From contig MEDJ01000023.1 in the NCBI GenBank assembly GCA_001724025.1, positions 62,001-126,000 of the forward strand: a stretch of DNA of 64,000 nucleotides. The letters run 5' to 3'. Source of the DNA: Acidobacteria bacterium SCN 69-37 (GTDB lineage Bacteria; Acidobacteriota; Vicinamibacteria; Vicinamibacterales; SCN-69-37). The position numbers and the translations under genes are program-made. Below, one piece after another: positions 4,163 to 42,324 of this stretch. The notes beneath the pieces are model-generated. The model was given only the letters and a program-made list of their open reading frames with translations, was not told the origin of the DNA and made no database searches. The stretch's first letter is position 1, and every line of letters begins with the position of its first letter.

Positions 4163-4684
4163 CTATCTGTCGAGCTCGCTGATCACGTGAGTCAGTTGCG
4201 GGAGGACGAGTTCGGTCATCGCCAGGCGGACCGCTGGTTCTGAGCCGGGCAGGACGAACACGACACTCCGGTGGATGACGCCGGCCGTCGCGCGCGAGAG
4301 CATGGCCGCCGGGCCGATTGCGTCGTAGCTGAGCCGGCGGAAGATCTCGCCGAACCCGGGTAGCGGGACCGAGAAGAGCGGCTCGAGCGCCTCGACCGTC
4401 ACATCACGCCGCGCGATGCCCGTGCCGCCGGTGGTGATGATGGCCCGGCACGTGCCCTGCGCGGCCCACGCGGCCACGGGCGCCGTGATGTCCGCGGGAT
4501 CGTCCGTCACCAGGCGCCGCTCGACCACGACGTGGCCGCCGGCCTCGAGTAGGGCCTGGATGGCCTGGCCCGAACTGTCGGCGGCCGGCGTGCGGGTGTC
4601 GCTGATGGTCAGGACGGCGCAGGCGACGGTTCGCCGGGGCGGATGCTGCAGGTCGGCCACGGACATCCAGGTGATTATGCCCAA
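4163..4684 (-). CDS. moaB: Molybdenum cofactor biosynthesis protein MoaB/MogA family
   Basis: A 173-residue molybdopterin-binding protein of the MoaB/MogA family, which adenylylates molybdopterin before MoeA adds the metal. TISDTRTPAADSSG, the ITTGGTGIARRDVT loop and FVLPGSEPAVRLAM mark the molybdopterin-binding fold. The first ATG (4684) gives an extra MGIITW leader; ATG 4666 (MSVADLQH) is an equally good start. The sequence is closer to MoaB than to MogA, but the two are hard to tell apart without alignment. It is the first gene of the moaB-moeA pair, and its start lies next to the divergent tRNA promoter. Confidence 0.88.
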   Translation of the reverse strand: MGIITWMSVADLQHPPRRTVACAVLTISDTRTPAADSSGQAIQALLEAGGHVVVERRLVTDDPADITAPVAAWAAQGTCRAIITTGGTGIARRDVTVEALEPLFSVPLPGFGEIFRRLSYDAIGPAAMLSRATAGVIHRSVVFVLPGSEPAVRLAMTELVLPQLTHVISELDR

Positions 4685-4860: not shown

Positions 4861-7800
4861 TCACTCCCGTCGGCCTGATCGGAGCGCTTGGCGTCGCGCT
4901 GCGGCCGTCTCCATCTGCTGCCGCCTGGCGTCGACGCGTGCGCGGGCGCGATCGACCGACTGCGTGACGGTCGTGTCCGTTGTCGTGCCGTCGAGCCGTT
5001 CGGCGAGCCGGTGTACGGTCGGGAAGCGGAAGAGGTCCGTCAGCGAGACGGGCTGCGGGACGCGCTGGCGCAACTGGTTCAGGACCTGCGCCGCCAGCAG
5101 CGAATCACCGCCGATATCGAAGAAGTTGTCGTGCGTGCCGACACGATCGACGCGCAGGACGTCCCGCCAGATCTCGACGACCAGCCGCTCCGTGTCCGAG
5201 CCGGGTTCGGCAGGCACGTGCGCCGTCCTCGGCGTGTCGTCGACGGCCGGCAACGCCCGTCGATCGATCTTGTTGTTGGGTGTCAGCGGGAAGGCGTCGA
5301 GGGACACGACGTGCGACGGCACGAGGAAATCGGGCATGCGCGCTGCCAGGGCCGCGCGGATCGCGGTGGGATCGCCCGGTGTGCCCGAGGTCGTGACGAC
5401 ATAGGCCACGAGCCGCTTGTCTCCCTCGCGATCCTCGCGGGCGACCACGACCGCCTCGCGCACGTCGGGCAGCGCGGTCAGCGCCGCTTCGATTTCGCCG
5501 AGCTCGATCCGGTGACCCCTGATCTTGACCTGCTGATCGCGGCGGCCGAGAAATTCGATCGTCCCGTCGTCGCGATAGCGCGCCACGTCGCCCGTGGCGT
5601 AGATGCGGGCGTGGCCGTCCGCGACGAACGGGTTCGGCAGGAAACGCTCGGCAGTGAGTTCCGGTCGCTGCCAGTAGCCGCGCGCCACACCGTCCCCCCC
5701 GATGTAGAGATCGCCGGACATGCCCATGGGGACCGGCTGCTGCGCTTCGTCGAGGATGTAGATCTGCGTGTTCGCGATGGGCCGGCCCACCGTGATCGTC
5801 TCGACGGGCGGCATCACGCGGGCGACGGTCGACCAGACAGTGGTTTCCGTCGGGCCGTACATGTTCCACAACTCGCCGTCGGGAATCGCCGCGCAGAGGT
5901 CGGTGGCCAGCGTCGCGGGCAGCGCCTCGCCGCCGACGAACCACGCGCGCAGCCGGCGCAGGGCCGCCCGGGCGTCGGTATCGAGCAGCAGCATGCGCGC
6001 CATCGAAGGCGTGCACTGGAGGTGCGTCACCGCGTGGCGCGTCAGCAGATCGGCAATCGATTCGTCGGCCGGGGCCGTGGTGTTGGCCCTGTGGCGCAGC
6101 GCTGCCAGGTACGGCAGGTTTGCGAGCACGACGTCTGTCTCGACACCGAAGTCGATCAGGCACGCGACCTCGTCGACGCCAATCGTCTTGAGCCGATCGA
6201 TCGTCGCCAGGCAGGTCTCCGGCCGTCCGAAGAGCCCGCTCGTCTCGTAGTAGCGCTCGAAGGAGTGCTCGACGAGCGCGTCGTAATCCTCCTCGGAGAG
6301 TGACGCGAAGATCTCGCTCGGGTTCTGCCCGCTGGCGCGGGCGGCAAAGGTCGGGAACGACTCGGCAAACGGCTTGACCAGATCGATCGACGTGCGCAGG
6401 TAGTCCATCAGCGGCTGTCGCACCGTCCGCCGCACGAACGCGTCATCGTCGGAGACGAGCGCGTGGAGCATCAGGACGACGTGGCCGGCGCCCTCGCGAC
6501 CGGTGGCGCGCCAGGCCGCCCGGTACGCCGCGATCTTCGTGGCCAGCTCCTCGACGCTCTGCCCGAGGAGGTGCGTCAGCACGCCCGCGCCCGCGCGGGC
6601 CGCCGCTTCGAAAGTCTCGGGATTCCCGGCCGCCGTGATCCACACAGGGAGCTCCGGCTGGATCGGTCGCGGCAGGGTCTGGATCGCCTGCTCGATGCCG
6701 CGCGGGGTCGTGAACGTCACCGCCTCGCCGCGCCACAGCGCACGCACGGTCTCGAGGCTCTCGAACAGCACGCGCTTGCGCTCGGCGTAATTCTCCGGTC
6801 GCAGCACGAAGTCGTTCGGCTGCCAGCCTGACGCGAATGCGATGCCGACGCGCCCGCCGGAAATGTTGTCGACGACGCTCCATTCCTCGGCGACGCGCAG
6901 CGGATGGTGCAACGGCAGGACGCAGCTGCCGGCCCGGATGCCGACGCGCGTGGTGAGCGCCGCCACGGCGGCACCGGTCACGGCTGGATTCGGATAGAGG
7001 CCGCCGAATGCGTGAAAGTGACGCTCGGGGGTCCACACGGCGGAGAAGCCGTTCGCGTCCGCGAACGTGGCGCCCTCCAGCAGCAGCCGGTACTTGCGCC
7101 CGGAATCCTGCCCCTCGTCGGCGGAGAAGTAGAAGAGGCTGAAGTCGATCGGCTCGGGCCGTGTCGATGTCGAGGCAACGCGATGCGCGGCCGCCGCCGC
7201 GCCCGCGTACATGACGATGGTGAACCCGCGCGCGAGCGTCCAGAACAGTTCGAGCACCGAGATGTCGAACGAGATGCTCGTCACCGCCAGCCAGACGCCC
7301 GGGACGTCGTGCGGCACGCACGCATCCATGCCCGCGAAGAAGTTCGCCACCTGGCGGTGCTCGAGCATGACGCCCTTGGGCGTCCCGGTCGACCCGGAGG
7401 TGTAGATGAGATACGCGAGATCATCGGGCGCGGCGGTGCGGCCGATGGGCGCGGATGAAAGCGTCGCGATCGTCGCGGCCTCGCGCGAGAGCGAGACGAC
7501 CCGCATGCCGTCGCCGAATCGCGAGGCCAGCGCGTCGTCCGCGATGACAGCGGTGATGGCGGCGTCGTGCGCGACGAACTGCAGGCGATCGGACGGGTAG
7601 TCCGGATCGAGCGGCACGTACGCGGCGCCGCTCTTGAGGATCGCGATCAGGCTGACGACGAGATCGGCGGAACGCGACAGGCAGACGCCGATGCGCGCGC
7701 CCGGTGCCGCACCTGTTGTCTTCAGGTGCCGGGCGAGGCGGTTCGCGCGTGCATCGAGCTCGGCATACGTCAGCGTCACGTCCGAGGCCACGAGGGCCAC

Positions 7801-9513
7801 GGCGTCCGGCGTCGCCAGCGCCTGACGTTCGATCTGTTCGTGGATCGGCCCGGCGTCGTATGCCGCCGCCGTCTGGTTCCACGTTTCGAGCAGCGTGGTC
7901 CGCGTCTCATCGTCGAGCAGCGACACGCCGGCGACGGGCGCGTCGGTGGCAACGAGTCGCGAGGCGAACGACATCCACAGGCGATGGAGCCGCGTGAGCG
8001 CGTCGGTCGTGTAGAGCCCGCTCGATGCGTCCCACTCCATGTGTCCGTTCGCGGTGTCCGGCCTGACGACGAGGCTGGCGTCGGGGCGTGTCGTCGTATG
8101 ACCATCGGGATCGAGCACGACGTGCGATCGCCACGCGGCGAACCCGCGCAGACCCGGCCGATCCGGGTAGCGGAGACAGACGTCGGTGAAGAACGTGCCG
8201 GACGCGCTCGCGCGTCGCGCGGCGGTCACGGCGTCGCGGACAGCGGACCAGGGCTGCGCGATGTCGATGGCGACGGGGATGCGGTCCGCAAGCAGCGGCA
8301 ATCCTGCCTGTGGCGGTGGCGCCACGGCCAGCGGCAGCACCGCCGATGGACGGCCGCCGATGCGGATCAGGAATGCGGCCACCGACGCGACGATGGCGTC
8401 GTGGTCGAGGCCGGCCAGGTTGGCTGGGATAGCTGCACGTACGTGCGTGCGATCGTCAGGCGCCGCAGCCTGACCCGTGTCGCTGGCGAAGGGCAGGGCC
8501 AGTCTGTCGAGTGACGCGAGCGTGTCGAGCCAGTCCCGTTCGGCGCGGACGGCGTGACGCCGCGCGGCCACGTCGGGCACGAGGACGTGCGGCAACGTCA
8601 GGCGGCTCCCCGGGATCACCGAGGCCTCGGCGGCAAACACGGAGATGGGCAGCGGTTCGCCCGTGGGGCGTCCCAGGCCGGTGATCCGGAGGCGTCCGGC
8701 GCCCGTGCCGATGATCAGGCTGCCTGCGTCCGCCAGGTCGACCTGGCCCGGCACACCAGGCGCGGGATCGACCTCGGCGCTCGTCACGATGGCCGTCCCG
8801 GCCGCGGTCACCAGACGGCACACGCCGAACGGATTCGGATATGGGCCGAAGTCCGACGCGCGCACGAGCCGATCGATCTCCACCGCCGGTGCCGTCCAGT
8901 CGATCACCCCCACGGTCTCCGGGCGCTGGTGGCGTCCGAACACGGTGCGCTGTCCGGCATCCTGGGCAATTGGCGTCAGCCGGTCGTGGACGAGGTCGTC
9001 GACGAGGGTGGTGAACGCGGTCAGCCCGGCCTCGTAGCACCGGGCGTTGAGTCCGAAGGTCGTTTCGTGCGGCGGAATCTCGAAGGTCTGCTGGGTCAGC
9101 AGGCGGCCGGCATCGACGGCGGCCGTCATCTCGTGCCAGGTCACCCCGTACGAGGTCTCGCCCTGCAGCAGCGCCCAGACGGGCGCGTTCAGCCCGGCGT
9201 AGCGGGGCAGCGGACCGTCATGGAAGTTGATCGCCAGTTCGCGCGGGGCCGACAGGATCTCCGGGCCGAGCTTCTCGAGATTGACGATGCTGAACAGGTA
9301 GTCGAACGGCTGCGCGGCCAGGTGCGCCGCGAGACCGGGGCCGGCTGGCACGACCGGAATGGCGTGGGATCCGGCCCAGCGGACCACGGCCGGATCGGAC
9401 GAGGCCACGCCGAGGATGGCGTGACCAGCGGTCAGGTACACGTCGGCGCAACGCGCCAGCAGGGAACCTTCGCCGATGAACCAGGCGCTCCGGGGGCGCG
9501 GCGCGTCAGTCAC
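4861..9513 (-). CDS. One-module NRPS: formyltransferase, adenylation split by luciferase-like monooxygenase, carrier protein
   Basis: A 1550-residue synthetase. Residues 1-310 form a Fmt-like formyltransferase with [13 protein letters not shown] and the Asp of AAVDAG. Residues 355-540 resemble a condensation-domain C-terminal part but contain no HHxxxDG motif. The adenylation domain starts near 555, with LTYAEL, the [11 protein letters not shown] loop at 704-714 and SFDIS at 748-752. It is then interrupted at about 785-1140 by an FMN-dependent luciferase-like monooxygenase ([26 protein letters not shown]). It resumes with [26 protein letters not shown] and NNKID. A carrier protein follows, with the phosphopantetheine Ser1471 in DIGGDSL. 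This resembles the MupA/Atu3671 monooxygenase architecture. The expected chemistry is activation, oxygenation and possibly N-formylation of one amino acid. No release domain is present. It is divergent from rmlB across 222 bases. Confidence 0.9.
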
Positions 9514-9735: not shown

Positions 9736-10782
9736 ATGAAGATCATCGTGACCGGCGGGGCCGGGTTTATCGGGGCCAACTTCCTGAATGGCCTGGTGCC
9801 CCGTTGCACCGACCACGTCTTCGTCAACGTCGACGCCCTGACGTACGCGGCCAATCCCGCCAGTCTCGAGGCGATCGCGACCCGGCCCAATTATAGCTTC
9901 GCGCGTGTGGACATCCGCGATCGCGCGGCCGTCGATCGGCTGTTCGCCCGCATCGAGCCGGATCTCGTCGTGCACTTCGCGGCCGAGAGTCACGTCGATC
10001 GCAGCATCCACAGTCCGCAGGCGTTCGTCGAGACGAACGTCATGGGGACCTTCAACCTGCTCGAGGCCTTCCGCGCCCTGCCGGATGTCGACCGCCGCCG
10101 GTTCCATCACGTGAGTACCGACGAGGTGTACGGCACGCTCGGCGCCGACGGCGCGTTCGTGGAGACGACGCCGTACGATCCGTCGAGTCCGTACTCCGCG
10201 TCGAAGGCGGCGTCCGATCACCTCGTGCGCGCGTACCATCGGACGTACGGCCTGCCCGTCACGATCTCGAACTGCTCGAACAACTACGGGCCGTACCAGT
10301 TTCCGGAGAAGCTGATCCCGTTGATGATCCTCAACGCCCTCGAGCGGAAGCCGCTGCCGGTCTACGGCCGCGGAGACAACGTGCGGGACTGGCTGTACGT
10401 CACCGATCACTGCGACGCCATCTGGCGGGTCATCAGGCACGGCCGCATCGGCGAGACCTACAACATCGGCGGTCGCAGCGAGCGCCGCAACCTCGATGTC
10501 GTCCATGCCGTCTGCGACGTCGTGGCCGAGTGCACGGGCGTATCCGCATCGACGCTGCGCGACCTGGTGACGTTCGTCCCCGACAGGCCGGGACACGATC
10601 ACCGGTACGCGATCGATCCCGCGAAGATCGAACGCGAGTGCGGATTTTCGCCCGCCGAGACGTTCGAGACCGGACTGCGCAAGACCGTGCGGTTCTACCT
10701 CGACCACGAGGCCTGGGTGCGGGCGGTGCGGACCGGCGCCTATCGCGCCTGGATCGACAGCCACTACGCGGGGCGCGTGTGA
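9736..10782 (+). CDS. rmlB: dTDP-glucose 4,6-dehydratase RmlB
   Basis: A 348-residue short-chain dehydrogenase/reductase-type dehydratase. It has the NAD-binding GGAGFIG near the N-terminus, [21 protein letters not shown] and the catalytic YSASKAASD, then [18 protein letters not shown] and the RDWLYVTDH segment specific to RmlB. It converts dTDP-glucose to dTDP-4-keto-6-deoxyglucose, the second step towards dTDP-L-rhamnose and related sugars. The open frame extends far upstream, but ATG 9736 gives the canonical N-terminus. The 222 bases before it (9514-9735) are shared with the divergent NRPS gene and must hold both promoters. Its stop overlaps the rmlA start. Confidence 0.94.
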
Positions 10783-17074: not shown

Positions 17075-18214
17075 ATGCGCCACTACGGTCCCATTGACAT
17101 CATCGGCAAGAGCCGTGCGATTACCGAGTTGAAAGCGGAGATCGATCGCGTCGCGCGATCGGACGCCAAGGTGCTCATCACCGGCGAAAGCGGCACGGGT
17201 AAGGAAGTGGTCGCCCGGGCCATCAACGCTGCCAGTCCCCGGGCCCAGCAGCCGTTCGTGCCCGTCAACTGTGCCGGCATTCCGGAGACCCTGCTCGAGT
17301 CGGAGTTGTTCGGCCACGTGAAGGGCAGCTTCACGGGCGCGTACCGCGACAAGCCGGGCAAGCTCGAGATGTCCGACAACGGCACGATCTTCCTCGACGA
17401 GATCGGCGAGATGACCCTGCGGATGCAGGGCCTGCTGCTCCGGTTCCTCGAAACCGGCGAGATCCAGAAGGTCGGGGCGGAGCGGCCGACCAACGTCACC
17501 AACGTGCGCGTCGTCACCGCGACGAACCGGAACCTGAGGGACCTGATCGGGCAGGGCCTGTTCCGCGAGGATCTCTACTACCGCATCAACGTCATCCACA
17601 TTGTCGTGCCGCCGCTGCGCGAGCGCCGCGAGGATGTGCCGCTGCTCGTCGAGCACTTCCTGCGGCGATTCACGTCGCTGCCGCTGCACGGGCACGGAAA
17701 CGGCAGCGGGGTCGGCCTCACCAATGGAGGGCAGGCCCTGGCGATGGCGGCAGACTTCAGCCCGGTCAAGGCCATTGCCCCGGATGCCCTGGCGGCGCTG
17801 TGCGACTATCACTGGCCCGGCAACGTCCGCCAGGTCGAGAACGTCGTGGAGCGGCTGGTGGTCACCGGTCGCCGGGAGGTGATTCAGCTCGACGACCTGT
17901 CGCCGGAGATTCGCGTGCCCGGCCAGCTGCACATGCGGCCGCGGCGGGAACGACGCCGGACGATTGCCGACGAGCTGTTCAAGAAGCTCCGCGAAGACGG
18001 CGAGTCGTTCTGGACCGCCGTGTATCCGCTCTACATGAATCGCGAGATCACGCGCGGCAACGTGCGCGATCTCGTGCACAAGGGGCTCGAGGAAGCGCGG
18101 GGCAACTACAAGATCGTCCTGCGGCTGTTCAACATGGAGCCGACCGACTACAAGCGTTTTCTCAACTTCCTGAGGAAGCACGACTGTCAATTGCCGTTCA
18201 AGGAATACCGCTGA
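17075..18214 (+). CDS. Sigma-54-dependent transcriptional activator heading the EPS operon (paralogue 2)
   Basis: A 379-residue enhancer-binding protein. The AAA+ domain begins almost at the N-terminus: GESGTGKE at 37-44, GSFTGA at 84-89, Walker B IFLDE at 105-109, YHWPGNVRQVENVVERL in the sensor region. The C-terminal 75 residues (SFWTAVYPLYMNREITRGN to RKHDCQLPFKEYR) are nearly the same as in the divergent paralogue and look like an elaborated Fis-type DNA-binding domain (GLEEARGNYKIVLRLF). There is a Gly/His-rich insert at about 205-225. No input domain is present, so activity must be set by a partner protein or by abundance. Its stop overlaps the start of the polysaccharide export gene, so it is co-transcribed with the EPS core and could autoregulate it. 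Confidence 0.9.
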   Translation: MRHYGPIDIIGKSRAITELKAEIDRVARSDAKVLITGESGTGKEVVARAINAASPRAQQPFVPVNCAGIPETLLESELFGHVKGSFTGAYRDKPGKLEMSDNGTIFLDEIGEMTLRMQGLLLRFLETGEIQKVGAERPTNVTNVRVVTATNRNLRDLIGQGLFREDLYYRINVIHIVVPPLRERREDVPLLVEHFLRRFTSLPLHGHGNGSGVGLTNGGQALAMAADFSPVKAIAPDALAALCDYHWPGNVRQVENVVERLVVTGRREVIQLDDLSPEIRVPGQLHMRPRRERRRTIADELFKKLREDGESFWTAVYPLYMNREITRGNVRDLVHKGLEEARGNYKIVLRLFNMEPTDYKRFLNFLRKHDCQLPFKEYR

Positions 18215-18867
18215 TGCGAGACAGGGTGATGCAGAACAGAGGAACCGTGGTTCGGGGCGTGATCGTGGGCGGGCTCGTCGTCGCGTTGACGGGAGTAGCG
18301 CCCGTCCTGGCGGCACAGGCGCCAGCGCCGGCACCGCCGCCGGCGGCCGTCGCCCCGTCCGAGACCGATGGCCCGAAGCTGCCGGCCGACTACGTCATTG
18401 GCGTGGCTGACGCGCTCGACGTGCGGTTCTGGGGACACGACAACATGACGTCGACGGTCGTCGTGCGGCCCGACGGCCGCATCTCGCTCCCGCTGCTCAA
18501 CGACGTGGAGGTGGCCGGCCTGACGCCCGACCAGCTGCGGGATCGCCTGACCACGGCGGGTGCCAAGTTCTTCACCGACGCCCCGGCCTTCGTGACCGTC
18601 CGCGAGATCAACAGCCGGCAGGTGTTCGTCACCGGCATGGTCGCCAATCCGGGATCGTTCCCCCTGGGCGGCGGGATGCGCGTGCTGCAGCTGATTGCGC
18701 TGGCGGGCGGACTCAACGAGTACGCCAACCGCAGCAAAATCAGCGTCATCCGTGACGAGGGCTCGAAGCAGGTGCGGCTCCCGTTCAATTACGACCAGAT
18801 CCGGAACGGGCGGAACCTCGAGCAGAACATCGAACTGCGCCCGGGCGATACGGTGCTCGTCCCGTGA
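18214..18867 (+). CDS. Polysaccharide export (OPX/Wza-type) periplasmic protein
   Basis: 217 residues. A signal peptide (VIVGGLVVALTGVAPVLAAQ) is followed by an Ala/Pro-rich linker and a polysaccharide export domain (LPADYVIGVADALDVRFWG, VVVRPDGRISLPLLNDVEVAGLT), then one SLBB domain (VFVTGMVANPGSFPLGG, LIALAGGLNEYA) ending in LRPGDTVLVP. No lipobox cysteine is present, so it is probably a soluble short OPX protein that lacks a membrane-spanning end and needs the neighbouring barrel as the pore. It resembles the export protein of exosortase-associated EPS loci. ATG 18214 overlaps the activator stop; ATG 18229 is an alternative. Confidence 0.87.
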   Translation: MRDRVMQNRGTVVRGVIVGGLVVALTGVAPVLAAQAPAPAPPPAAVAPSETDGPKLPADYVIGVADALDVRFWGHDNMTSTVVVRPDGRISLPLLNDVEVAGLTPDQLRDRLTTAGAKFFTDAPAFVTVREINSRQVFVTGMVANPGSFPLGGGMRVLQLIALAGGLNEYANRSKISVIRDEGSKQVRLPFNYDQIRNGRNLEQNIELRPGDTVLVP

Positions 18868-20234
18868 GGCACCGACGGACCGAACCCGTCGTGCGCGTGG
18901 CCGTGCTGGCATTCGCCGCCTGGGCCGTGTGCGTCGTGGGCGCACGGCCGGTTGCCGCTCAGGGGCCCCAGCGTCCCGATCCCCGATCGGAGCGCCCGAA
19001 TCGTGCCCTGTTCGGCGGTGGCCTCGGCGACGTCGAACAGGTGCTGACGATCAGCGGATCGGCTGGCGCCAGCGCCGACTGGTTCTCGACCGGTGCGGCG
19101 ATCGATCCCGAGACACCCGTCGGCCTGCCGGATGGACGTCTGCCGTCGGCCGAGTGGACGGGCGGTGTGGGCTACTCGACCACCGGCCGTCGCCTGGCGT
19201 TCCAGGCGTCGGGTGGCCTTGGCGGCCGGAAGATCCTGCGCCAGAGTCGGCCGGTCCTTGTCGGCAACAACGCGACAGCCGCTGTGCAGTATCAACTCGG
19301 CCGGACGACGACGCTCTCGGCCAGGGGCGCGCATCTCGATGAGCCGGTGTCGATCTCCAGTCTGTTGCCGGGGGCGTTCGGCGGCATCGGCACGGTCCTG
19401 CCCATCGACTACGCGCCGGGCTCCGAGGTCTCGAGCACGCTCACGCAGGACGCGAGCGTCCAGATCGCGCAGCAGGTGGCGCGCGGGACGTCCGTGATGG
19501 GCACGTTTTTCTACAGGCGCGCCCGCCTGGCCGGCACGACCTTCGAGCGGTCGAGCCGCACGATCACCGTCGGCGTCTCGCAGCGCGTGAGCCGGTACCT
19601 GGCGCTGCGCGCCGCGTACGGGCGCGGCCTGTCGAGTGGCGGGGAAGAGACGGCCGACGAGACCTACACCTACGATTTCTCCAGTCACATCATCGACGTC
19701 GGGATCGACTTCCTGCGGCCGTGGTCGCTGACGCGGCGGACGCAGCTCGACGTACGGACCGGCACCACGGCGCTCTCCGACGGCGGGCGCACGCAGTATG
19801 CCCTGACGGGTTCGGCGACGCTGAGCCACGAGGTCGGACGCACGGGGCTGCTGGCCGCCACCTACGCGCGCCAGGCGGATTTCCTGGAAACGCTTCGCGC
19901 GCCGGCGATTTCCGACACGGCGACACTGCAGTGGTCGAGTCTGCTCGGTCGCCGCGTCGAACTGCGGGCATCGACCGCGCTCTCGTTCGGCACGATCGGA
20001 CTCGGTTCGAACGGCAGCGACTATCGCGCGTCTGCCAGCCGGGCCGGCATGACGGTCGGCCTGAACCGATATCTCGGCCTCACCGTCGATTACGCGTACG
20101 ACCGCTATCGCCTCGATGACGTCCGTGCGATCCCCGTCGCGTTCAACGGACACTTCAACCGTTCGGGGATCCGGGCCGTCGTCGATGTCTGGGCGCCGGT
20201 GTTCTATCGAAGGGGACGAAATGCTACCCGGTAA
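18864..20234 (+). CDS. Outer-membrane beta-barrel protein of the EPS locus
   Basis: 456 residues starting at GTG (4-base overlap with the export gene). It has a signal peptide (LAFAAWAVCVVGARPVAAQ). The mature part alternates polar and hydrophobic residues in many 8-12-residue strands (TGGVGYSTTGRRLAFQAS, TSVMGTFFYRRARLAGTTF, SYGRGL-like turns) and ends in a strand-like FNRSGIRAVVDVWAPVF. This pattern fits an outer-membrane barrel of roughly 20 strands and the uncharacterised barrel that follows the export protein in exosortase-type EPS operons. The likely role is the outer-membrane pore for the polymer, working with the short OPX protein; this is inference from context. Confidence 0.75.
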   Translation: MRHRRTEPVVRVAVLAFAAWAVCVVGARPVAAQGPQRPDPRSERPNRALFGGGLGDVEQVLTISGSAGASADWFSTGAAIDPETPVGLPDGRLPSAEWTGGVGYSTTGRRLAFQASGGLGGRKILRQSRPVLVGNNATAAVQYQLGRTTTLSARGAHLDEPVSISSLLPGAFGGIGTVLPIDYAPGSEVSSTLTQDASVQIAQQVARGTSVMGTFFYRRARLAGTTFERSSRTITVGVSQRVSRYLALRAAYGRGLSSGGEETADETYTYDFSSHIIDVGIDFLRPWSLTRRTQLDVRTGTTALSDGGRTQYALTGSATLSHEVGRTGLLAATYARQADFLETLRAPAISDTATLQWSSLLGRRVELRASTALSFGTIGLGSNGSDYRASASRAGMTVGLNRYLGLTVDYAYDRYRLDDVRAIPVAFNGHFNRSGIRAVVDVWAPVFYRRGRNATR

Positions 20235-21777
20235 GACCTACACTCCCGAGGACGTCCTGGCGATCGTCCGTAAGCGCATCTGGCTCCTGCTCGTGCCGAT
20301 GGCGGTCGTGACAGCCATCGTCGCGCTGCTGGCCCAGCGGCTGCCGAACGTCTACCGCGCCGAGACGCAGGTGCTCGTGGTCGCCCAGCGCGTGCCCGAC
20401 ACCATCGTCCGTAACACGGTGACGACGCGGATCGAAGACCGGCTGCAGACGATCAATCCGATCATCCAGAGCCGGACGCGCCTCGAGCGGATCATTCTCG
20501 ACTTCGACCTGTACCCGAACGAGCGTCGCATCTGGGTCATGGAAGATGTCGTCGCGCTGATGCGCCGGAACATCGACGTACAGGTGTCGCGCGGCGACGC
20601 CTTCCGGATCACGTACACGGGCAGCGAACCGCAGAAGGTGCGCGACGTCACGAACCGGCTCGCCGGCCTCTACATCGACGAGAGCCTGCGCGATCGCGAG
20701 GCGCTGGCCGACAGCACCGATCAGTTCCTGGAATCGCAGTTGAAGGACGTCGAACGCCGGCTGCTCGAGAAGGAGCGTCTGCTCGCCGAGTACCGGTCGC
20801 GCCACGCGGGCGAGCTCCCGTCGCAGTTCGAAGCCAACCTGCAGCAGTTGCGCAACGCGCAGGCCCAGGTGCAGACGGCCGCCGACACGGCCAACAGGCA
20901 GCAGGAGCGTCGGATCCTCGTCGAGCGGCAGATTGCCGAGCTCGAGGCCGCGCCATCGACAGAGGTGCCGTCGATGACGACCGATGCCGGCGGTACGCAG
21001 GTCGAGGTCGGCAACACGGCCCAGCAGTTGGCGACCGCGCAGGCGCTGTTCGCGGATCAGGAGACCCGCTTCCGGCCCGGCCATCCCGATCTCGAGGCGA
21101 CGCGTCGGCGTGTGGCCGAACTGCAGGCGCGCCTGCAGTCGGAGATGTCGGCGGGCGGGAGCGCCGAGGTACTGCCATCGCCGGCCGAGGTCGCGCGTCA
21201 GCGGCGCCTCACACAGCTCCGCAACGACCTGGCGGAGATCGATCGCCAGATCGCGCGGTCTCGCGACGACCAGGGACGGTTTACGGCCGCGGCTCAGGAG
21301 GCCGAACGCCGGCTCGAGGCGGTGCCGATGCGCGAGTCCGAACTCGTCGAACTGTCGCGCGACTACAGCACGCTCGACGCGTTGTACAAGAGCCTCGCGG
21401 CGCGGAAGGAAGATGCGCGGATTTCGGCCAACCTGGAGCGTCGCCAGATCGGCGAGCAGTTCCAGATCCTCGATCCGGCCCAGTTGCCCGAACGGCCGAT
21501 CAGCCCGAACCGGCAGCAGATCATCCTCGTGGCCCTGATGGCAACGCTCGTCATCGGCGTGGCCATCGCCGGCGTGCTCGAGTACCGCGATCGCGGCCTG
21601 CACACGGAGGACGATGTGGCCTCGGTGCTGGAACTCCCCGTGCTCGCCGTCGTCCCGCGGATGCAGACGGAGGCGGAAAGGACCCGCCAGCGCCTGCGAC
21701 GCCTGCTGCTCAACGTCACGTGTACGCTGGTCGTGATCGGCGGGCTGGCGACCGTGGTGTACACGCTGGTGGCGTGA
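20221..21777 (+). CDS. Chain-length determinant protein (Wzz/GumC type)
   Basis: 518 residues from ATG 20221, which has GGGGA upstream. An N-terminal membrane segment (IWLLLVPMAVVTAIVALLA, about 20-38) and a C-terminal one (IILVALMATLVIGVAIAGVLEY) enclose a long periplasmic domain. The middle of that domain is coiled coil (LKDVERRLLEKERLLAEYR and further heptads at 160-400). PERPISPNRQQ before the second membrane segment is the Pro-rich motif of this family. An extra hydrophobic helix ends the protein (LVVIGGLATVVYTLVA). It sets polymer length and partners the tyrosine kinase at 22791. It overlaps the end of the barrel gene by 14 bases. Confidence 0.9.
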   Translation: MLPGKTYTPEDVLAIVRKRIWLLLVPMAVVTAIVALLAQRLPNVYRAETQVLVVAQRVPDTIVRNTVTTRIEDRLQTINPIIQSRTRLERIILDFDLYPNERRIWVMEDVVALMRRNIDVQVSRGDAFRITYTGSEPQKVRDVTNRLAGLYIDESLRDREALADSTDQFLESQLKDVERRLLEKERLLAEYRSRHAGELPSQFEANLQQLRNAQAQVQTAADTANRQQERRILVERQIAELEAAPSTEVPSMTTDAGGTQVEVGNTAQQLATAQALFADQETRFRPGHPDLEATRRRVAELQARLQSEMSAGGSAEVLPSPAEVARQRRLTQLRNDLAEIDRQIARSRDDQGRFTAAAQEAERRLEAVPMRESELVELSRDYSTLDALYKSLAARKEDARISANLERRQIGEQFQILDPAQLPERPISPNRQQIILVALMATLVIGVAIAGVLEYRDRGLHTEDDVASVLELPVLAVVPRMQTEAERTRQRLRRLLLNVTCTLVVIGGLATVVYTLVA

Positions 21778-21784
21778 GGCGCAG

Positions 21785-22777
21785 ATGTACGAGGCCTTCT
21801 TCGAACTGTCGGCGCGGCCTTTCGATCTCACGCCGAGCCCGAAGTTCCTGGTGCTGACCGATTCGCATCGCGAGGCCCTCAGGAACCTCGAGTACGCCAT
21901 CGCGAGCCGGAAGGGTGTCACGCTGCTCGTGGGCGATGCCGGGGCCGGCAAGACCACGGTGATTCGTGCCGCCCTCGAGGCTCAGCCGTCGACCGTGCAC
22001 TGCGTGCACCTGAACAATCCGGCGCTGACGCGTGACGAGTTCGTCGAGCTGCTGGCCGCGCGCTTCGGATTGTCGGCCCGTGCCTCGGGATCGAAGAGCC
22101 AGCTGCTCCTGGAACTCGAGACGCTTCTCCGGGACCGGCACGCGGCGGGGGAGACGACGGTCCTGGTGGTCGACGAAGCGCAGAGCCTCTCCCTGGAACT
22201 GCTCGAGGAGATCCGGCTGCTGGCCAACATCGAGACGGACACCGAGAAGCTCGTGTCGGTGATTCTGGCGGGACAGCCCGAGCTGGCCGATCGACTGAAC
22301 GATCCGAGCCTGCGGCAGTTGAAGCAGCGTGTGGCCCTGCGGTGCACGATCCGGTTGCTGACCGCGGCCGAGACCGAGGTCTACATCGCGTGCCGGATCC
22401 ACGCGGCCGGCGGCAAGGCGTCGCTCGCGTTCACGCGGGAGGCGGTGCGCCGCATCCACGAGGCGTCGCGCGGCCTGCCGCGCGTCATCAACGTGCTCGG
22501 CGACAATGCGCTGCTCGGCGGGTTCGCCGCGGGCGTGCGGCCGGTGACGGCCGAGATCGTCGAGGACGTGTGTCGCGATTTCGATTTCGGGCTGGTGACG
22601 GAGCGCCACGGTCCGGCCGTGGCGCCGCCGGTGCCCGGCAGCGACCGGTCCGCCGCGTCCGATGGGCCTGGGGGGCCGTCCTCCGAGGTCCCGTCGGCCA
22701 CGCCGCGCGAGGGCCAGGGCGACCTGTTTGGATCGTTCGCCCGGCGGCGACGGAAGTTCTCGTTCTTCTGGGGTTGA
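21785..22777 (+). CDS. ExeA-like AAA ATPase of the EPS locus
   Basis: 330 residues. It begins with MYEAFFELSARPFDLTPSP, the hallmark of ExeA/GspA-type ATPases. Walker A is GDAGAGKTT (50-58), Walker B is VLVVDEAQSLS, and sensor-like segments are VILAGQPEL and RGLPRVINVLGDNALL. The C-terminal 70 residues are low-complexity Pro/Ser/Gly followed by a basic RRRRKFSF-like end. Homologues occur in exosortase-associated EPS operons between the chain-length protein and the kinase, where their exact role is not established; a cytoplasmic energising or assembly role is likely. It lies 7 bases after the chain-length gene. Confidence 0.87.
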   Translation: MYEAFFELSARPFDLTPSPKFLVLTDSHREALRNLEYAIASRKGVTLLVGDAGAGKTTVIRAALEAQPSTVHCVHLNNPALTRDEFVELLAARFGLSARASGSKSQLLLELETLLRDRHAAGETTVLVVDEAQSLSLELLEEIRLLANIETDTEKLVSVILAGQPELADRLNDPSLRQLKQRVALRCTIRLLTAAETEVYIACRIHAAGGKASLAFTREAVRRIHEASRGLPRVINVLGDNALLGGFAAGVRPVTAEIVEDVCRDFDFGLVTERHGPAVAPPVPGSDRSAASDGPGGPSSEVPSATPREGQGDLFGSFARRRRKFSFFWG

Positions 22778-22790
22778 AGGGAGCGTTTGG

Positions 22791-23732
22791 ATGGGCCGCG
22801 TTGATGAAGCCATGCGTCGTGCCGCGGAGGCACGACAGCCGATCAGTCCGGACGCGGGGGATGCCGCCGGGGGCCCGACCGTCGGCTGGCCAGCAGCGCC
22901 CGCGCCGGTCGAGGCGTTCTCGTCCGAGGGCGCCGAGCGGCCCCGGCCGCGACCGGTGACCACGGTGCCGGAGATTCTGCCGTCACGTCCGCCGGCGTCC
23001 GGGGCGCCATCGTCGCCTGTCGGCGAGCGGATTGCCGCGGATCTCGCGAACAAGATCGTGGTCGACAGCGGGATGGATGCGGGATCGCGCGAGCAGTATC
23101 GCCGGATGGCGGCCACGCTCCACGCTCTGCAGGCCGAGTCGGGCCTGCGGGTCATCACGGTGGCCAGTGCGATGCCGGGCGAGGGAAAGACGCTCACGGC
23201 GGCCAATCTGGCGCTGACGTTGAGCGAGTCCTACCAGCGGAAGGTGCTGCTCATCGATGGCGACCTGCGCAAGCCGTCGCAGCACGCGGTCTTCGGCCTG
23301 CCGGTGTCGCCGGGCCTGACCGAGGGTGTGGTGGGGACGGACGCGGCGCTCTCGCTCCACCGGGTGTCGCCGACGCTGACGGTCATCACCGCGGGCGAGC
23401 CGACAGACGATCCGATGGTGACGCTCGCTGCCGAACGGATGCAGGCGTTGATCACCGAGGCCCGCGAGCAGTTCGACTGGATCGTCATCGATACGCCACC
23501 TGTGGGACTGCTGCCCGATGCCGGCCTCATCAGTGGTCTGGCCGACGGCACCGTGGTCGTCGTCCGTGCCGATGCCACCCAGTACGATTTCGTGCAGCGG
23601 TCCATTGCGGAGCTCGGCCGGGAACGCATCCTGGGTGTGGTGCTGAATCTGGCGACGCCGCCGACCGACGTGCGGTACGGCGCGAACTACGGCCGGTACG
23701 CGGAGCGGACATCGCCCCCCGGGCGGCGCTGA
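22791..23732 (+). CDS. EPS-type tyrosine autokinase (CpsD/BY-kinase)
   Basis: 313 residues from ATG 22791 (AAGGGAG upstream). A disordered Pro-rich N-terminal part runs to about residue 75. A P-loop kinase of the bacterial tyrosine kinase family follows: Walker A ASAMPGEGKTLTAANL, Walker A' LLIDGDLRKPS, Walker B WIVIDTPPVGLLPD. The C-terminus has a short tyrosine cluster (RYGANYGRYAE), a candidate autophosphorylation site, though smaller than in Wzc. It lacks its own membrane part and would be activated by the chain-length protein two genes upstream. Phosphorylation cycling normally controls polymer length and export. Confidence 0.88.
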   Translation: MGRVDEAMRRAAEARQPISPDAGDAAGGPTVGWPAAPAPVEAFSSEGAERPRPRPVTTVPEILPSRPPASGAPSSPVGERIAADLANKIVVDSGMDAGSREQYRRMAATLHALQAESGLRVITVASAMPGEGKTLTAANLALTLSESYQRKVLLIDGDLRKPSQHAVFGLPVSPGLTEGVVGTDAALSLHRVSPTLTVITAGEPTDDPMVTLAAERMQALITEAREQFDWIVIDTPPVGLLPDAGLISGLADGTVVVVRADATQYDFVQRSIAELGRERILGVVLNLATPPTDVRYGANYGRYAERTSPPGRR

Positions 23733-23744
23733 CGGTCGAGGTCC

Positions 23745-25124
23745 ATGCAACGCATCACGCTCAGAAGTGCCACGTTCGTCGTCCTCGAGGGGCTCCTGAT
23801 CGTCGGGGCCGCCATCGTGGCGCTGTACGTGCGGATGGGCGAGGATGCCGGGCCCCTGATGGCCGACGGCGGCGTGTGGAAGCTGGTGCTGATTGCCGCG
23901 GTCACGCAGGCGTGCCTCTACTACGCCGACCTCTACAACCAGCGGCTCGTGACCGATCGCCGCGAGTTCTTCATTCGCGTACTGCAGGCCGTCGGCGGTG
24001 CGGCCGTCGTGCTGGCCGGGCTGTACTTCTGGTTCCCGTCACTCATCATCGGCCGTGGCGTGTTCCTCGTGGCGGCCGTGCTGATCGTGCTGATCGTGCC
24101 GGGATGGCGGATCGCCTTTCAGTGGCTGAGCGGATACGTGGGGCCGCGCGAGCGGTTACTGCTGGTCGGCGCGAGTCCGGCGGCCATCGTCCTGGCGCGG
24201 GAACTCGACGAACGCCGCCACGATCTTGGCGTCGAGATCGTCGGGTTCGTCGATGTCGGCGGCGACACGGCGGCGATTGCCGAAGCCGGCCAGGCCGTCC
24301 TCGGGACGATCGAGGATATTCCGTCGATCGTCAGGGCCCGCGGCGTCGATCGCGTCGTCGTCAGCCTGGCCGATGCCCGCGGCAAGCTGCCGATGGAAAA
24401 GCTGCTCGAGATGAAGCTCGACGGCGTCACCTTCGATCACCTGCCATCGGTCTACGAGGAGTACACCGGGAAGATCGCCGTCGAGAACCTGCGGCCGAGC
24501 TGGCTGATCTTCTCCGCCGGGTTCCGGCGCAGCCGGACGATTGCCGCACTGAAGCGGACGATGGACGTCTGGATCGCCGCGAGCGGCCTCGTCATCGGCG
24601 CTCCGCTGCTGCTGCTGGTGGCCGTGCTCGTGCGCCTGACGTCGCCGGGGCCGATCCTCTATCACCAGCGCCGGGTCGGATTGCGCGGCCATATCTTCTT
24701 CGTGCACAAGTTCCGGAGCATGCGACAGGACGCCGAGGCAACCACCGGGGCGGTGTGGGCCTCGCCGACAGGAGACAGCCGCGTGACGCCGATCGGGCGG
24801 TTCATGCGCAAGACGCGCATCGACGAACTGCCGCAGTTGTGGAACATCCTCAAGGGCGAGATGAGCTTCGTCGGTCCCCGCCCGGAACGGCCGGAGTTCG
24901 TCACCGACCTGACGCGCGTCATCCCGTACTACGGCCAGCGCCACATCGTCCGGCCCGGACTGACCGGCTGGGCGCAGGTGTGTTACACCTACGGGGCCAG
25001 CACCGAGGACGCGCTGCAGAAGTTGCAGTACGACCTCTACTACATCAAGAACCTGTCGGTCTGGCTCGACTTCTACATCATGTTCGAGACCATCAAGACC
25101 GTCGTGCTCAGGAAGGGAGCGTGA
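23745..25124 (+). CDS. Polyprenyl-phosphate sugar-1-phosphate transferase (EPS priming enzyme)
   Basis: 459 residues. The N-terminal half has about four membrane helices (LEGLLIVGAAIVALYVRM, GGAAVVLAGLYFW, VFLVAAVLIVLIV) and a Rossmann-like CoA-binding-type domain (LLLVGASPAAIVLARELDE). The C-terminal half is the bacterial sugar transferase catalytic domain, with KRTMDVWIAASG, a membrane-dipping helix, KFRSMRQDAE, RKTRIDELPQLWNIL, SFVGPRPERPEF and VRPGLTGWAQV. It transfers a sugar-1-phosphate to undecaprenyl phosphate, starting each repeat unit. The architecture matches the sugar transferases of exosortase-type loci (EpsB/WbaP-like). The sugar cannot be read from sequence. Confidence 0.92.
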   Translation: MQRITLRSATFVVLEGLLIVGAAIVALYVRMGEDAGPLMADGGVWKLVLIAAVTQACLYYADLYNQRLVTDRREFFIRVLQAVGGAAVVLAGLYFWFPSLIIGRGVFLVAAVLIVLIVPGWRIAFQWLSGYVGPRERLLLVGASPAAIVLARELDERRHDLGVEIVGFVDVGGDTAAIAEAGQAVLGTIEDIPSIVRARGVDRVVVSLADARGKLPMEKLLEMKLDGVTFDHLPSVYEEYTGKIAVENLRPSWLIFSAGFRRSRTIAALKRTMDVWIAASGLVIGAPLLLLVAVLVRLTSPGPILYHQRRVGLRGHIFFVHKFRSMRQDAEATTGAVWASPTGDSRVTPIGRFMRKTRIDELPQLWNILKGEMSFVGPRPERPEFVTDLTRVIPYYGQRHIVRPGLTGWAQVCYTYGASTEDALQKLQYDLYYIKNLSVWLDFYIMFETIKTVVLRKGA

Positions 25125-25125
25125 G

Positions 25126-26046
25126 GTGATTGCCGCCGACCATGACCGTGCGTCAGACGAGCCCATCGTCAACGCGATGAGCATCGACGTGGAGGACTAC
25201 TTTCACGTCAGCGTCTTCGACGGGCTGGTGCCCCGTTCGCAGTGGGACTCGATGGAGAGCCGGGTGAAGGCCAACACCCTCCGGCTGCTCGAGATCTTCG
25301 ACGAGTTCAAGGTGCGATCGACGTTCTTCGTCCTGGGCTGGGTCGGGCGGCGGCATCCGGATCTCGTGTCGACGATTGCGCGTGCGGGGCACGAGGTGGC
25401 CTCGCACGGCTACGCGCACCGGCTCATCTACGACCAGACGCCGGCCGCCTTCCGCGAGGACGTCCGCCGAGCGAAAGGCCTCCTGGAGGAGGCGGCGGGG
25501 CGTGTGGTCTGCGGCTACAGGGCCCCCAGCTATTCGATCACGCCGCGATCGCTGTGGGCGCTCGATATCCTGGCCGAGGAAGGCTACACGTACGACTCGA
25601 GCATCTTCCCGATCAGACACGATCGCTACGGCATTCCCGTCTCGGGCCGGCGACCCTACCGGATCGTCCGCGGCACGCGTTCACTCATCGAGGTGCCCGG
25701 ATCGACGACGAAGGTCGGGCCGGTGAACCTGCCGGTGGCCGGCGGCGGATACTTCCGCCTGCTGCCGTACTGGTGGACGCGCTGGGGGATCTCGCGCGTC
25801 AACAGGCTGGAGCATCGGCCGGCGGTGTTCTACCTGCACCCGTGGGAAATCGATCCCGGACAACCGCGGCTGCCGGCCGGCCGGCTCGGCCGCTTCCGCC
25901 ACTATCGCAACATCGAGCACACGGAAGCGCGGCTGCGGCAACTGCTGACCGACTTCCGGTTCGATGCCGTCGACACCATCGTCTCGCGTGCCTGCGAGGC
26001 CGGCTACGGTGCGGCGACGACCCCGGCGCTGCCGTACTCCTGGTGA
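25126..26046 (+). CDS. Polysaccharide deacetylase, EPS-locus type
   Basis: 306 residues from GTG 25126. A NodB-type deacetylase domain begins with MSIDVEDYFHVSVFD; the Asp pair and the HGYAHRLIYDQTP segment provide the expected metal ligands. GYRAPSYSITPRSLWALDIL is the next conserved motif, and a C-terminal extension follows (FYLHPWEIDPGQPRLP). This extended form is the one found in exosortase-associated loci. It probably removes N- or O-acetyl groups from the growing polymer. No signal peptide is seen, so a cytoplasmic or carrier-linked substrate is likely. The next start overlaps its stop. Confidence 0.9.
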   Translation: MIAADHDRASDEPIVNAMSIDVEDYFHVSVFDGLVPRSQWDSMESRVKANTLRLLEIFDEFKVRSTFFVLGWVGRRHPDLVSTIARAGHEVASHGYAHRLIYDQTPAAFREDVRRAKGLLEEAAGRVVCGYRAPSYSITPRSLWALDILAEEGYTYDSSIFPIRHDRYGIPVSGRRPYRIVRGTRSLIEVPGSTTKVGPVNLPVAGGGYFRLLPYWWTRWGISRVNRLEHRPAVFYLHPWEIDPGQPRLPAGRLGRFRHYRNIEHTEARLRQLLTDFRFDAVDTIVSRACEAGYGAATTPALPYSW

Positions 26047-27140
26047 CGCCGCCCGTGTCTTTTTCTGTGGACGCGGGGCCGGAGGCCGACCTGCGCGAGG
26101 TGGCCCCGGGCGTGACGGTGCAGGCGGCCACCGACGGCGTGGCCTGGAATGCCTTCGTTGCGGCGCATCCGGCCGGCACCGTCGATCACCTGTGGCAATG
26201 GCGTCACGTGATCGCCGACGCGCTCGGTCACGAGAGTCTCTACCTCGAGGCCCGTCGTGCCACGACCGTCGTCGGTGTGCTGCCCCTCGTTCTCGTCCGA
26301 TCGCGGATCTTCGGTCGCAGCGTGATCTCGCTGCCGTTCCTCAACTACGGCGGCATCCTGGCGGACGGCAACGATCCCGACGTCGTGCAGGCGCTGATCG
26401 ACGCGGCGCGCGACGCGGCGTCGCGATTCGGCGGCAGTCACGTGGAACTGCGCCACACGAGGCGGCAGAGCGCGACGCTGCCGTGCCGCCAGCACAAGCT
26501 GGCGATGCTGCGCGATCTGCCCGCGTCGTCCGAGACGCTCTGGACGGCCCTCGATCGGAAGGTCCGCAACCAGGTCCGGAAGGCACAGAAGGCGGAATTG
26601 ACCGTGGCGTCTGGCGGCGTCGAACTGGTCGACGAGTTCTACGACGTATTCAGCCGCAACATGCGCGATCTGGGAACGCCCGTCTATCCGAAGGCGCTCT
26701 TCACGCTGACGCTCCAGACGTTCGCCCGCGAAGCGCGTGTGGTCGTGGTGCGTCACGGCCGGCAGACGGCCGCGGCCGGCATCAGTCTCACGTTCGGCCG
26801 CACGGTCCTCAACCCGTGGGCCTCGTCGCTCCGCGAGCTCCGGCCGCTCTGTCCGAACATGCTGCTGTACTGGACGCTGCTCGAGCAGGCCGTCGCGGAT
26901 GGCGCCGAGGTCTTCGACTTCGGCCGGTCGTCCCCGGGCGCCGGCACGCACCAGTTCAAGCTCCAGTGGGGGGCCGTCGAACACCCCCTGTGCTGGGAAT
27001 ACGTGCTGTTGTCGCGGCCCGAGCCGCCGGATCAGGGCCCGTCGAATGCGAAGTTCGATCGCGCGATCGCGATCTGGCAGCGCCTGCCGCTCGGGATCGC
27101 CAACCGTCTCGGTCCGATCGTCGCGAAGCACCTGCCCTGA
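26043..27140 (+). CDS. FemAB-like (GNAT-fold) protein of the EPS locus
   Basis: 365 residues from GTG 26043, which overlaps the deacetylase stop as GTGA; GTG 26055 is an alternative. It shows the double GNAT organisation of FemAB/peptidoglycan-interpeptide-type transferases, with HLWQWRHVIADALGHES, LPFLNYGGIL, WTALDRKVRNQVRKAQKA, FGRTVLNPWASSLRE and VFDFGRSSPGAGTHQFK. The last segment, with DFGRS and FK, matches the version found in exosortase-type EPS operons. The family transfers aminoacyl groups in cell-wall synthesis, but the substrate in EPS loci is unknown. It is the last gene of the plus-strand EPS core and meets the minus-strand acyltransferase 24 bases on. Confidence 0.88.
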   Translation: MTPPVSFSVDAGPEADLREVAPGVTVQAATDGVAWNAFVAAHPAGTVDHLWQWRHVIADALGHESLYLEARRATTVVGVLPLVLVRSRIFGRSVISLPFLNYGGILADGNDPDVVQALIDAARDAASRFGGSHVELRHTRRQSATLPCRQHKLAMLRDLPASSETLWTALDRKVRNQVRKAQKAELTVASGGVELVDEFYDVFSRNMRDLGTPVYPKALFTLTLQTFAREARVVVVRHGRQTAAAGISLTFGRTVLNPWASSLRELRPLCPNMLLYWTLLEQAVADGAEVFDFGRSSPGAGTHQFKLQWGAVEHPLCWEYVLLSRPEPPDQGPSNAKFDRAIAIWQRLPLGIANRLGPIVAKHLP

Positions 27141-27164
27141 CAGCGCGTCACCCGCGCCGGCGGA

Positions 27165-27764
27165 TCACGCAGACGTCGTCGTGTCCCGGCGATCGCGCAG
27201 CACACGCGCCGGCACGCCGGCCGCGATGCTGTAGTCGGGAACGGGCCGCGTGACGACGCTGCCCGCGGCGATGACGCAGTGGCGACCGACGTCGGCCAGG
27301 ACGATGGCGCCGCTGCCGACCCACGTCCCTTCGCCAATCCGCACCATCACGCGTTGCCCCGGCTGCTCGCGAATTGGCACGTCGAGGCGCGCGGTGCCGT
27401 GCGTGTCGGGGCCGCTCGGGATCTGGACCCCGGAGGCGATGAGCACGTCGCGTTCGAGGTGGACGAGGCCGAGATGGCACCCGGGGCCCACGTAGACGTG
27501 CGCGTCGATGCGCGTCTCGGCCTGGCTCAGGATGGTGCCGAAGTGCACACTGGCCGTCGGGTGGAACGACGCGAGGACGCGTGCGAGGAACGCGCCCCGC
27601 AGGTACGAGCCGGACAGGCCCGGCAGCCACGCGAGCGCCTGGGTCGATCCTTCCAGTGCCCGATCGGCCCCCAGGACGCGGCGTCGCAGCGCGTACGACA
27701 GCAGGCTCGGCGCAACGACGACCGTGGCCAGGGCGCGTGCGGTGAGCTTGAGCGCGTCACGCAT
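27165..27764 (-). CDS. Left-handed beta-helix acyltransferase
   Basis: 199 residues from ATG 27764 (ATG 27779 is an alternative and lies within the upstream gene). The N-terminal 60 residues are helical and hydrophobic. Hexapeptide repeats then begin with HPTASVHFGTILSQAETRID and continue to the classic active-site and loop end (GRHCVIAAGSVVTRPVPDYSIAAGVPARVL). It is probably an O-acetyltransferase acting on a sugar or on the polymer. Its start overlaps the end of the glycosyltransferase at 27757-28896, so the three minus-strand genes 27165-30089 form one operon. Confidence 0.82.
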   Translation of the reverse strand: MRDALKLTARALATVVVAPSLLSYALRRRVLGADRALEGSTQALAWLPGLSGSYLRGAFLARVLASFHPTASVHFGTILSQAETRIDAHVYVGPGCHLGLVHLERDVLIASGVQIPSGPDTHGTARLDVPIREQPGQRVMVRIGEGTWVGSGAIVLADVGRHCVIAAGSVVTRPVPDYSIAAGVPARVLRDRRDTTTSA

Positions 27765-30089: not shown

Positions 30090-30241
30090 GATGGCGAGAT
30101 CCGCGCGCAGGCAGGTGGCACATCGCCCGCGCCGGCCGATGTTACTATGAGCCTGCTGAAAAGCGCAGGTATCCCGCGCGTGTCTGCGACTGCCACGATC
30201 GGTCGGCCGTCCGACGAGCTTCCTGGACGGATCTGGCAGTA

Positions 30242-34046: not shown

Positions 34047-34117
34047 GCCGATATCGCCGATGATACTGCGGGCGCCCGGCGGTCATCGGCAGCGGTCGAT
34101 GTCGTGGTCCCTCGTCG

Positions 34118-42275: not shown

Positions 42276-42324
42276 GTGAAGCAATGAGGCGAGTGAAGGG
42301 GCCGATGGGCCGGGAGAGCCACGC

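Follow-up and report, generated by a model that had tools for sequence, protein, structure and literature searches.

A nonribosomal peptide synthetase with a formyltransferase domain and a monooxygenase-interrupted adenylation domain, its polyketide synthase partner, and their linkage to exopolysaccharide loci

LgrA, which initiates the synthesis of linear gramicidin, has a formyltransferase (F) domain that formylates valine on the peptidyl carrier protein (PCP). Another elaboration of nonribosomal peptide synthetases (NRPSs) is found in the myxothiazol and melithiazol synthetases, where a flavin monooxygenase lies between motifs A4 and A5 of an adenylation (A) domain; glycine is hydroxylated and then cleaved to form an amide (PMC10204066). 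In solanimycin, the hydroxyglycine is retained uncleaved (PMC10204066). Four known glycine A domains with a monooxygenase share the specificity code DILQLGMIWK, and the monooxygenase cleaves glycine (PMC12283262). Here we describe an NRPS with both an F domain and an interrupted A domain. It is encoded in a 64,000-nucleotide stretch of DNA from Acidobacteria bacterium SCN 69-37 (contig MEDJ01000023.1, positions 62,001 to 126,000; we call this whole stretch the window), where it lies beside an exopolysaccharide (EPS) locus.

As in MtaG and MelG (from the myxothiazol and melithiazol synthetases), the monooxygenase (MOX) sits between A4 and A5 of a glycine-type A domain, and the specificity codes are nearly identical. 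But MtaG and MelG are terminal modules with a full upstream condensation (C) domain and amide release, whereas the NRPS in the window initiates synthesis and carries an F domain and half of a C domain (half-C), and a separate polyketide synthase (PKS) comes next. LgrA, which is its closest full-length relative in the PDB, has the same F-A-PCP order of an initiation module, with an intact F domain N-terminal to A-PCP. But LgrA activates valine instead of glycine, has no MOX, and continues into an NRPS; also, its F domain is directly followed by the A domain, while here the half-C lies between them. MupA and PuwE contain a MOX of the same family (TIGR04020), but not as an insert in an A domain: MupA works in trans, and the MOX of PuwE lies between PKS and NRPS modules. 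In vitro, MupA hydroxylates the alpha carbon of a beta-ketoacyl thioester bound to an acyl carrier protein (ACP), and it requires an external flavin mononucleotide (FMN) reductase (PMC10953402). PuwE was assigned the 2-hydroxylation of a beta-amino acyl chain (PMC4219810).

An NRPS-like/type I PKS (T1PKS) hybrid biosynthetic gene cluster (BGC) from Roseibaca, whose product is unknown, has an NRPS gene of 4,527 nt and a T1PKS gene of 6,333 nt, which are one gene and about 1 kb apart; this hybrid type is present in 18 of the 37 species studied (PMC10584327). Its gene sizes and gene order match those of the Natronohydrobacter loci that we found (L047 and L050), and it is very probably the same system as the NRPS-PKS pair described here. 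It was published only as a novel BGC, and the paper does not contain the terms polysaccharide or glycosyltransferase (PMC10584327). Type I PKSs do belong to the capsule loci of rhizobia (RkpA) and Burkholderia (WcbR) (PMC3908369). Going by their descriptions, these are similar in that a PKS lies inside a capsular polysaccharide locus, but no partner with a formyltransferase, an NRPS, and a MOX is described there. Our literature searches, which covered open-licence papers, found no report that ties this type of NRPS-PKS to EPS. In other words, the domains and the insertion are known, but we did not find descriptions of the F/half-C initiation version, the fixed PKS partner, or the recurrent linkage to EPS genes. 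The MOX-interrupted glycine modules known so far are mainly a few terminal ones, while this one initiates synthesis and has a fixed PKS. If the product is incorporated in EPS or acts with it, then glycans would be decorated through assembly-line chemistry, and a roseobacter BGC that is common but of unknown product would gain a testable function.

An initiation module with an interrupted A domain

A preliminary description of the window, made from its sequence alone, had recognized an NRPS open reading frame (ORF) with an F domain and with a MOX inside the A domain. The ORF is indeed intact (Table 1), with a GTG start, no stop codons, and a third-position GC content (GC3) of 0.88. Pfam identifies Formyl_trans_N (residues 82-167), Formyl_trans_C (202-295), AMP-binding (in two pieces), Bac_luciferase (800-1115), AMP-binding_C (1340-1415), and PP-binding (1444-1507). 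A search for related loci found 381, and our counts rest on 80 of these, in which a single ORF has the same domain order. These 80 full-length relatives rule out that the fused ORF is a chance reading, a misassembly, or a chimera.

The motif positions bear out the placement of the MOX between SFDIS (A4) and NMYGPTET (A5), as first described. Residues 791-1140 match the entire TIGR04020 model (positions 1-341 of 341) with 502.1 bits, above the cut-off of 244.45, so the MOX belongs to this family; the nearest solved structure is that of PuwE (6KET, E = 2.5e-107). The AlphaFold model of the A(MOX)A part has a pLDDT of 86.8, but its pTM is low (0.56), so the placement of the MOX relative to the A domain is unreliable. 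In this model, the two pieces come together as a complete A domain from which the insert loops out (rmsd of 1.7 Å over 407 residues with Txo1), which makes this an A domain of the MtaG type, interrupted between A4 and A5. Among 33 aligned members, neither the core motifs of the A domain nor the A10 lysine varies.

Reading the specificity residues by alignment, which the preliminary description had suggested as a way to predict the substrate, gives the code DILQFGMVWK (8/10 identical to DILQLGMIWK). The 81 relatives compared have the code DILQ[M/L/F/C/Y]GM[I/V]WK, which in 57 of them is DILQMGMIWK (9/10 identical). Because the family's code nearly matches that of glycine-activating A domains with a MOX, glycine is the best prediction for the substrate.

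The catalytic residues of the F domain are well conserved: N96 is present in all 81 relatives and H98 in 76 of them, and D134 is nearly invariant. The AlphaFold model of the F/half-C part (pLDDT 88.9) matches Met-tRNA formyltransferase and ArnA with Z about 31, but this structure search was dominated by the F domain and has no bearing on the fold of the half-C. The half-C was identified with hhalign: a profile of 79 relatives matched four true C domains with a probability of 98.9% (E = 3e-17, template columns 191-450 of 452). The preliminary description was correct that this is a remnant of a C domain that lacks HHxxxDG, the motif of functional C domains. Only the C-terminal half of the C domain aligns (to residues ~320-542 of the NRPS), and HHxxxD is found in 0 of 81 relatives. 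The half-C is probably a relic or a structural linker. Its presence would fit descent from an elongation module (C-A(MOX)-PCP) in which an F domain took the place of the N-terminal half of the C domain.

The partner PKS and a proposed pathway

The preliminary description saw the NRPS at the edge of the EPS locus but overlooked a partner PKS at the locus's opposite end. This PKS crosses the right edge of the window and sits between the genes for Wzm and PrsT, so that the NRPS and the PKS bracket the EPS locus. Its domains are ketosynthase (KS), acyltransferase (AT), ketoreductase (KR), dehydratase (DH), ACP, and thioesterase (TE), and all of its catalytic motifs are intact. A PKS of about 2100-2200 amino acids adjoins the NRPS in 68 of the 80 loci, nearly always on the same strand, and most of the other 12 are at contig ends. 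In three genomes (L027, L044, and L049, from Planctomycetota and Gemmatimonadota), no PKS adjoins the NRPS, and a close PKS is on a separate contig; in two cyanobacterial genomes with the NRPS, we looked for the PKS and did not find it. Across 59 loci, the distances between NRPSs and between PKSs are correlated (Mantel r = 0.90, 0 of 2000 permutations), although host relatedness may inflate this correlation.

The PKS has some unusual features. In the window, the nucleophile of the TE is cysteine (GSCAGG), while most relatives have serine (GFSGGG). The substrate motifs of the AT are odd across the family: GHSMGE and AAHS (PKS residues 628-635 and 726-734), which is neither the malonyl motif HAFH nor the methylmalonyl motif YASH. 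And the Rhizobium PKS (L063:14485-23721, and L064), which has no EPS markers nearby, contains an additional C-A-PCP module ahead of the TE; the extra module in L063 implies that the assembly line can be extended by one amino acid.

As judged from sequence and structure, the architecture is established, the catalytic residues are intact, the code is of the glycine type, the PKS is the partner, and the linkage to EPS genes (see below) is recurrent; our confidence in the architecture, the code, and the partner is high. We propose that the NRPS and the PKS form a two-protein assembly line. First, the split A domain would activate glycine and load it onto the PCP. The F domain would then formylate the amino group of glycine using formyl-tetrahydrofolate, as in LgrA, and the inserted, FMNH2-dependent MOX would hydroxylate the alpha carbon, as in MtaG and MelG. 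In those modules, the upstream peptide provides an N-acyl group; here, the formyl group may play this part, and the half-C would be what is left of the C domain that the F domain replaced. N-formyl-alpha-hydroxyglycyl-S-PCP is the expected intermediate because the code indicates glycine, the catalytic residues of the F domain are kept, and the studied members of the MOX family hydroxylate the alpha carbon of carrier-bound acyl groups. We consider the formylation and alpha-hydroxylation of carrier-bound glycine to be likely.

The N-formyl-alpha-hydroxyglycyl group would be transferred to the KS of the PKS for one malonyl-type extension, with reduction by the KR and probably dehydration by the DH. 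One such extension with reduction is probable, if slightly less so than the chemistry on the NRPS. The TE would free a C4 formamido product, such as 4-formamido-4-hydroxycrotonic acid (C5H7NO4, 145.038) or its butenolide (C5H5NO3, 127.027), but our confidence in the exact product is low. The preliminary description had predicted an oxygenated and perhaps N-formylated aminoacyl product. Such a unit is well supported by the glycine code, the F residues, and the MOX family, but it would be an intermediate, since it is extended by a dedicated PKS module. Finally, we speculate that the product serves the EPS whose genes the two enzymes bracket: it could be attached to a sugar as a substituent, or it could accompany the EPS as a metabolite.

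Linkage to EPS genes and competing explanations

The reported adjacency of the NRPS to an EPS locus is real, and the locus is of the XrtA/PEP-CTERM type. We also looked for the same architecture beside EPS loci in other bacteria, as had been suggested; it recurs in the Rhodobacteraceae and in the clade of the window's NRPS, and partially elsewhere. In the Rhodobacteraceae, genes for Wzx, Wzy, Wzz, a kinase, WecG, and sugar transferases surround the pair in 25 of 25 full-length loci. (The hosts in this family are abundant in the sea and include Ruegeria pomeroyi, Sulfitobacter, Shimia, and Roseovarius; several are cultured isolates.) A family 2 glycosyltransferase (GT2) gene lies between the PKS and the NRPS in 28/28 of the Rhodobacteraceae loci, and a phosphopantetheinyl transferase (PPTase) gene is present in 26/28, with many 4-nt overlaps. 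A GT2 gene is also within the NRPS-PKS operon of Caldimonas and of another alphaproteobacterium.

In a phylogenetic tree, the window's NRPS groups with those of Burkholderiales, sphingomonads, and a planctomycete (support 90). Nearly all of the loci in this clade are among polysaccharide genes, including Wzx (L017, L069, L091), Wzy-like (L021, L069, L072, L091), glycosyltransferases (GTs), a deacetylase, and DegT. Outside of the Rhodobacteraceae, narrow hidden Markov models found EPS core markers at 11/47 loci versus 2/20 matched controls, which is a modest excess (the two marker-positive controls are close to an NRPS locus, at distances of about 20 and 26 kb, and might be part of its region), and GTs at 19/47 loci versus 4/20 controls. 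The MOX-interrupted initiation module and its PKS partner span at least seven phyla; the tree and this distribution suggest that the pair was transferred between phyla.

We see about an even chance that the function is tied to EPS, and we lean, by a hair, towards the full model, with a two-protein NRPS-PKS line whose formamido product serves EPS. Covalent attachment of the product to EPS is doubtful. It is similarly unlikely that this horizontally spread line makes an acyl or butenolide cap, derived from N-formyl-hydroxyglycine, that is put on EPS by the dedicated GT2 or by acyl transfer.

Several observations count against our proposal. MupA needed a beta-keto substrate, which formyl-glycine is not. 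H98 of the F domain is missing from 5 of the 81 relatives. In the window, the NRPS and the EPS genes are divergently oriented and do not share an operon. The Rhodobacteraceae loci derive from a single ancestor, so 25/25 counts as few independent events. Outside of the Rhodobacteraceae and the window's clade, we found no EPS markers near the pair in, for example, Sneathiella, Rhizobium, or Anaerolineae. And a congener (G014) and another member of the family (G175) have kept a syntenic EPS locus but lack both the NRPS and the PKS (what comes after PrsT in G175 is a Gfo/Idh gene and the Wzm/Wzt region). Because these two genomes keep the EPS locus without the pair, the pair is an accessory of the locus and not part of the EPS machine; either the window's lineage acquired it or the other lineages lost it. 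The preliminary description had raised decoration of the polymer or signaling as roles, and it reasoned that absence of the NRPS from otherwise matching EPS loci would indicate chance adjacency. The NRPS is absent from two such loci, and the pair is dispensable for the locus, but it recurs in EPS loci elsewhere, and the link to EPS is stronger than that description could know.

It is possible, though we do not favor it, that the same chemistry yields a small molecule that diffuses freely, as a signal or a toxin, and has nothing to do with polysaccharides; EPS loci would then be sites that gather horizontally acquired genes. This would explain the pair's patchy presence over phyla in the tree, its absence from G014 and G175, and the pairs without EPS markers in Sneathiella, Rhizobium, and Anaerolineae. 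Also, release by a TE suggests a free product. However, the EPS linkage is repeated in separate clades, and a GT2 is kept in the NRPS-PKS operon (in all 28 Rhodobacteraceae loci and in the two other bacteria); both speak against a free product of this kind.

We also considered cleavage as in MtaG: the hydroxylated formyl-glycine, a carbinolamide, would collapse to formamide and glyoxylyl-S-PCP, which would prime the PKS and lead to an oxo- or hydroxy-acid without nitrogen. The insertion site is the same as in MtaG and MelG, whose hydroxyglycine is cleaved, and the code is nearly the same. But cleavage would discard the nitrogen along with its formyl group, which would be wasteful when an F domain with strongly conserved residues is kept to modify that nitrogen, and the hydroxyglycine of solanimycin stays uncleaved (PMC10204066). 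So cleavage seems improbable, and we prefer retention of the formamido group.

Lastly, the window's copy could be a relic, with an NRPS and a PKS that a rearrangement around the EPS locus split up and that have ceased to cooperate: the usually adjacent genes are about 53 kb apart here, no PPTase is linked to them (the genome has a single, unlinked one), and the TE has cysteine instead of serine. But this is very improbable, as neither ORF is truncated, every catalytic motif is present, the GC3 of both is coding-like, and cysteine is workable as a TE nucleophile in other synthetases.

Gene neighbors and other relatives

Table 1. Features of the NRPS, its PKS partner, and the EPS locus (positions in the window)
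Feature	Position	Strand	Basis or remark
moaB-like gene 3' of NRPS, then moeA (2945-4156)	4163..4684	-	not counted in the system
NRPS initiation module F - half-C - A(MOX) - PCP, 1550 aa	4861..9513	-	ORF; Pfam/NCBIfam
PCP, residues 1440-1510, serine in GGDS	4984..5196	-	Pfam
A domain part 2, A5-A10; A5 NMYGPTET (residues 1217-1224) at 5842-5865	5239..6078	-	specificity code; model
MupA/Atu3671-type luciferase-like MOX, residues 791-1143	6085..7143	-	TIGR04020; PuwE 6KET
A domain part 1, A1-A4; A4 SFDIS (residues 748-752) at 7258-7272	7144..7851	-	motifs; Pfam
C-terminal half of C domain, residues ~320-545	7879..8556	-	hhalign; few invariant columns
F domain, residues 7-300, catalytic N96/H98/D134 kept	8614..9495	-	Pfam; AlphaFold model; conservation
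dTDP-glucose 4,6-dehydratase-like, first EPS-side gene, divergent from NRPS, 222-bp gap	9736..10782	+	sequence recognition
XrtA/PEP-CTERM EPS locus core, including sigma54 regulator	17075..51652	.	
EPS chain-length protein	20224-21777		within EPS core
XrtA ATPase	21785-22777		within EPS core
Sugar transferase	23745-25124		within EPS core
Deacetylase	25126-26046		within EPS core
O-ligase/Wzy	39760-41121		within EPS core
Wzt	50438-51652		within EPS core
ABC-2 permease (Wzm-like), adjoins PKS	61840..62634	-	
Partner PKS, C-terminal part (KS-AT-KR-DH-ACP-TE, 2096 aa)	62671..63999, on to window-equivalent 68961 (G000:C23:124671-130961)	-	Pfam; motifs

PrsT and an exosortase-like gene are immediately past the PKS. 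On the other side, moaB and moeA do not form a functional operon with the NRPS: in the congener G014, moaB adjoins nrdB/nrdA on a different contig from the EPS locus. Elsewhere in the window's genome (G000:C21:171000-241000) is a large modular PKS/NRPS cluster, separate from this system, that has three full C domains.

The other TIGR04020 members of the phylum (L158-L164) are not orthologs, as their MOX is attached to modular PKS modules and is not in an A domain. Only G188 (L165:11290-16364) has both F and A(MOX) pieces; these are on two overlapping ORFs (F and A(MOX)A-PCP), which could be a split gene or a frameshift. We searched the G188 genome for the PKS partner and found no match.

Most of the Rhodobacteraceae loci also encode proteins of about 315 and 845 amino acids, as a pair or a fusion (cluster 13; L085:17432-20913 and its matches), which are kept in the EPS loci beside the NRPS-PKS. 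These proteins have no matches in Pfam or NCBIfam. Another recurrent neighbor of the pair, in Burkholderiales and Myxococcota, is an ORF of the xanthine oxidase type, which binds the molybdopterin cofactor (L017:4423-6825, L021:5840-8068, L037:6827-9118, and L039:6755-9430; Pfam was applied to L017 and L021).

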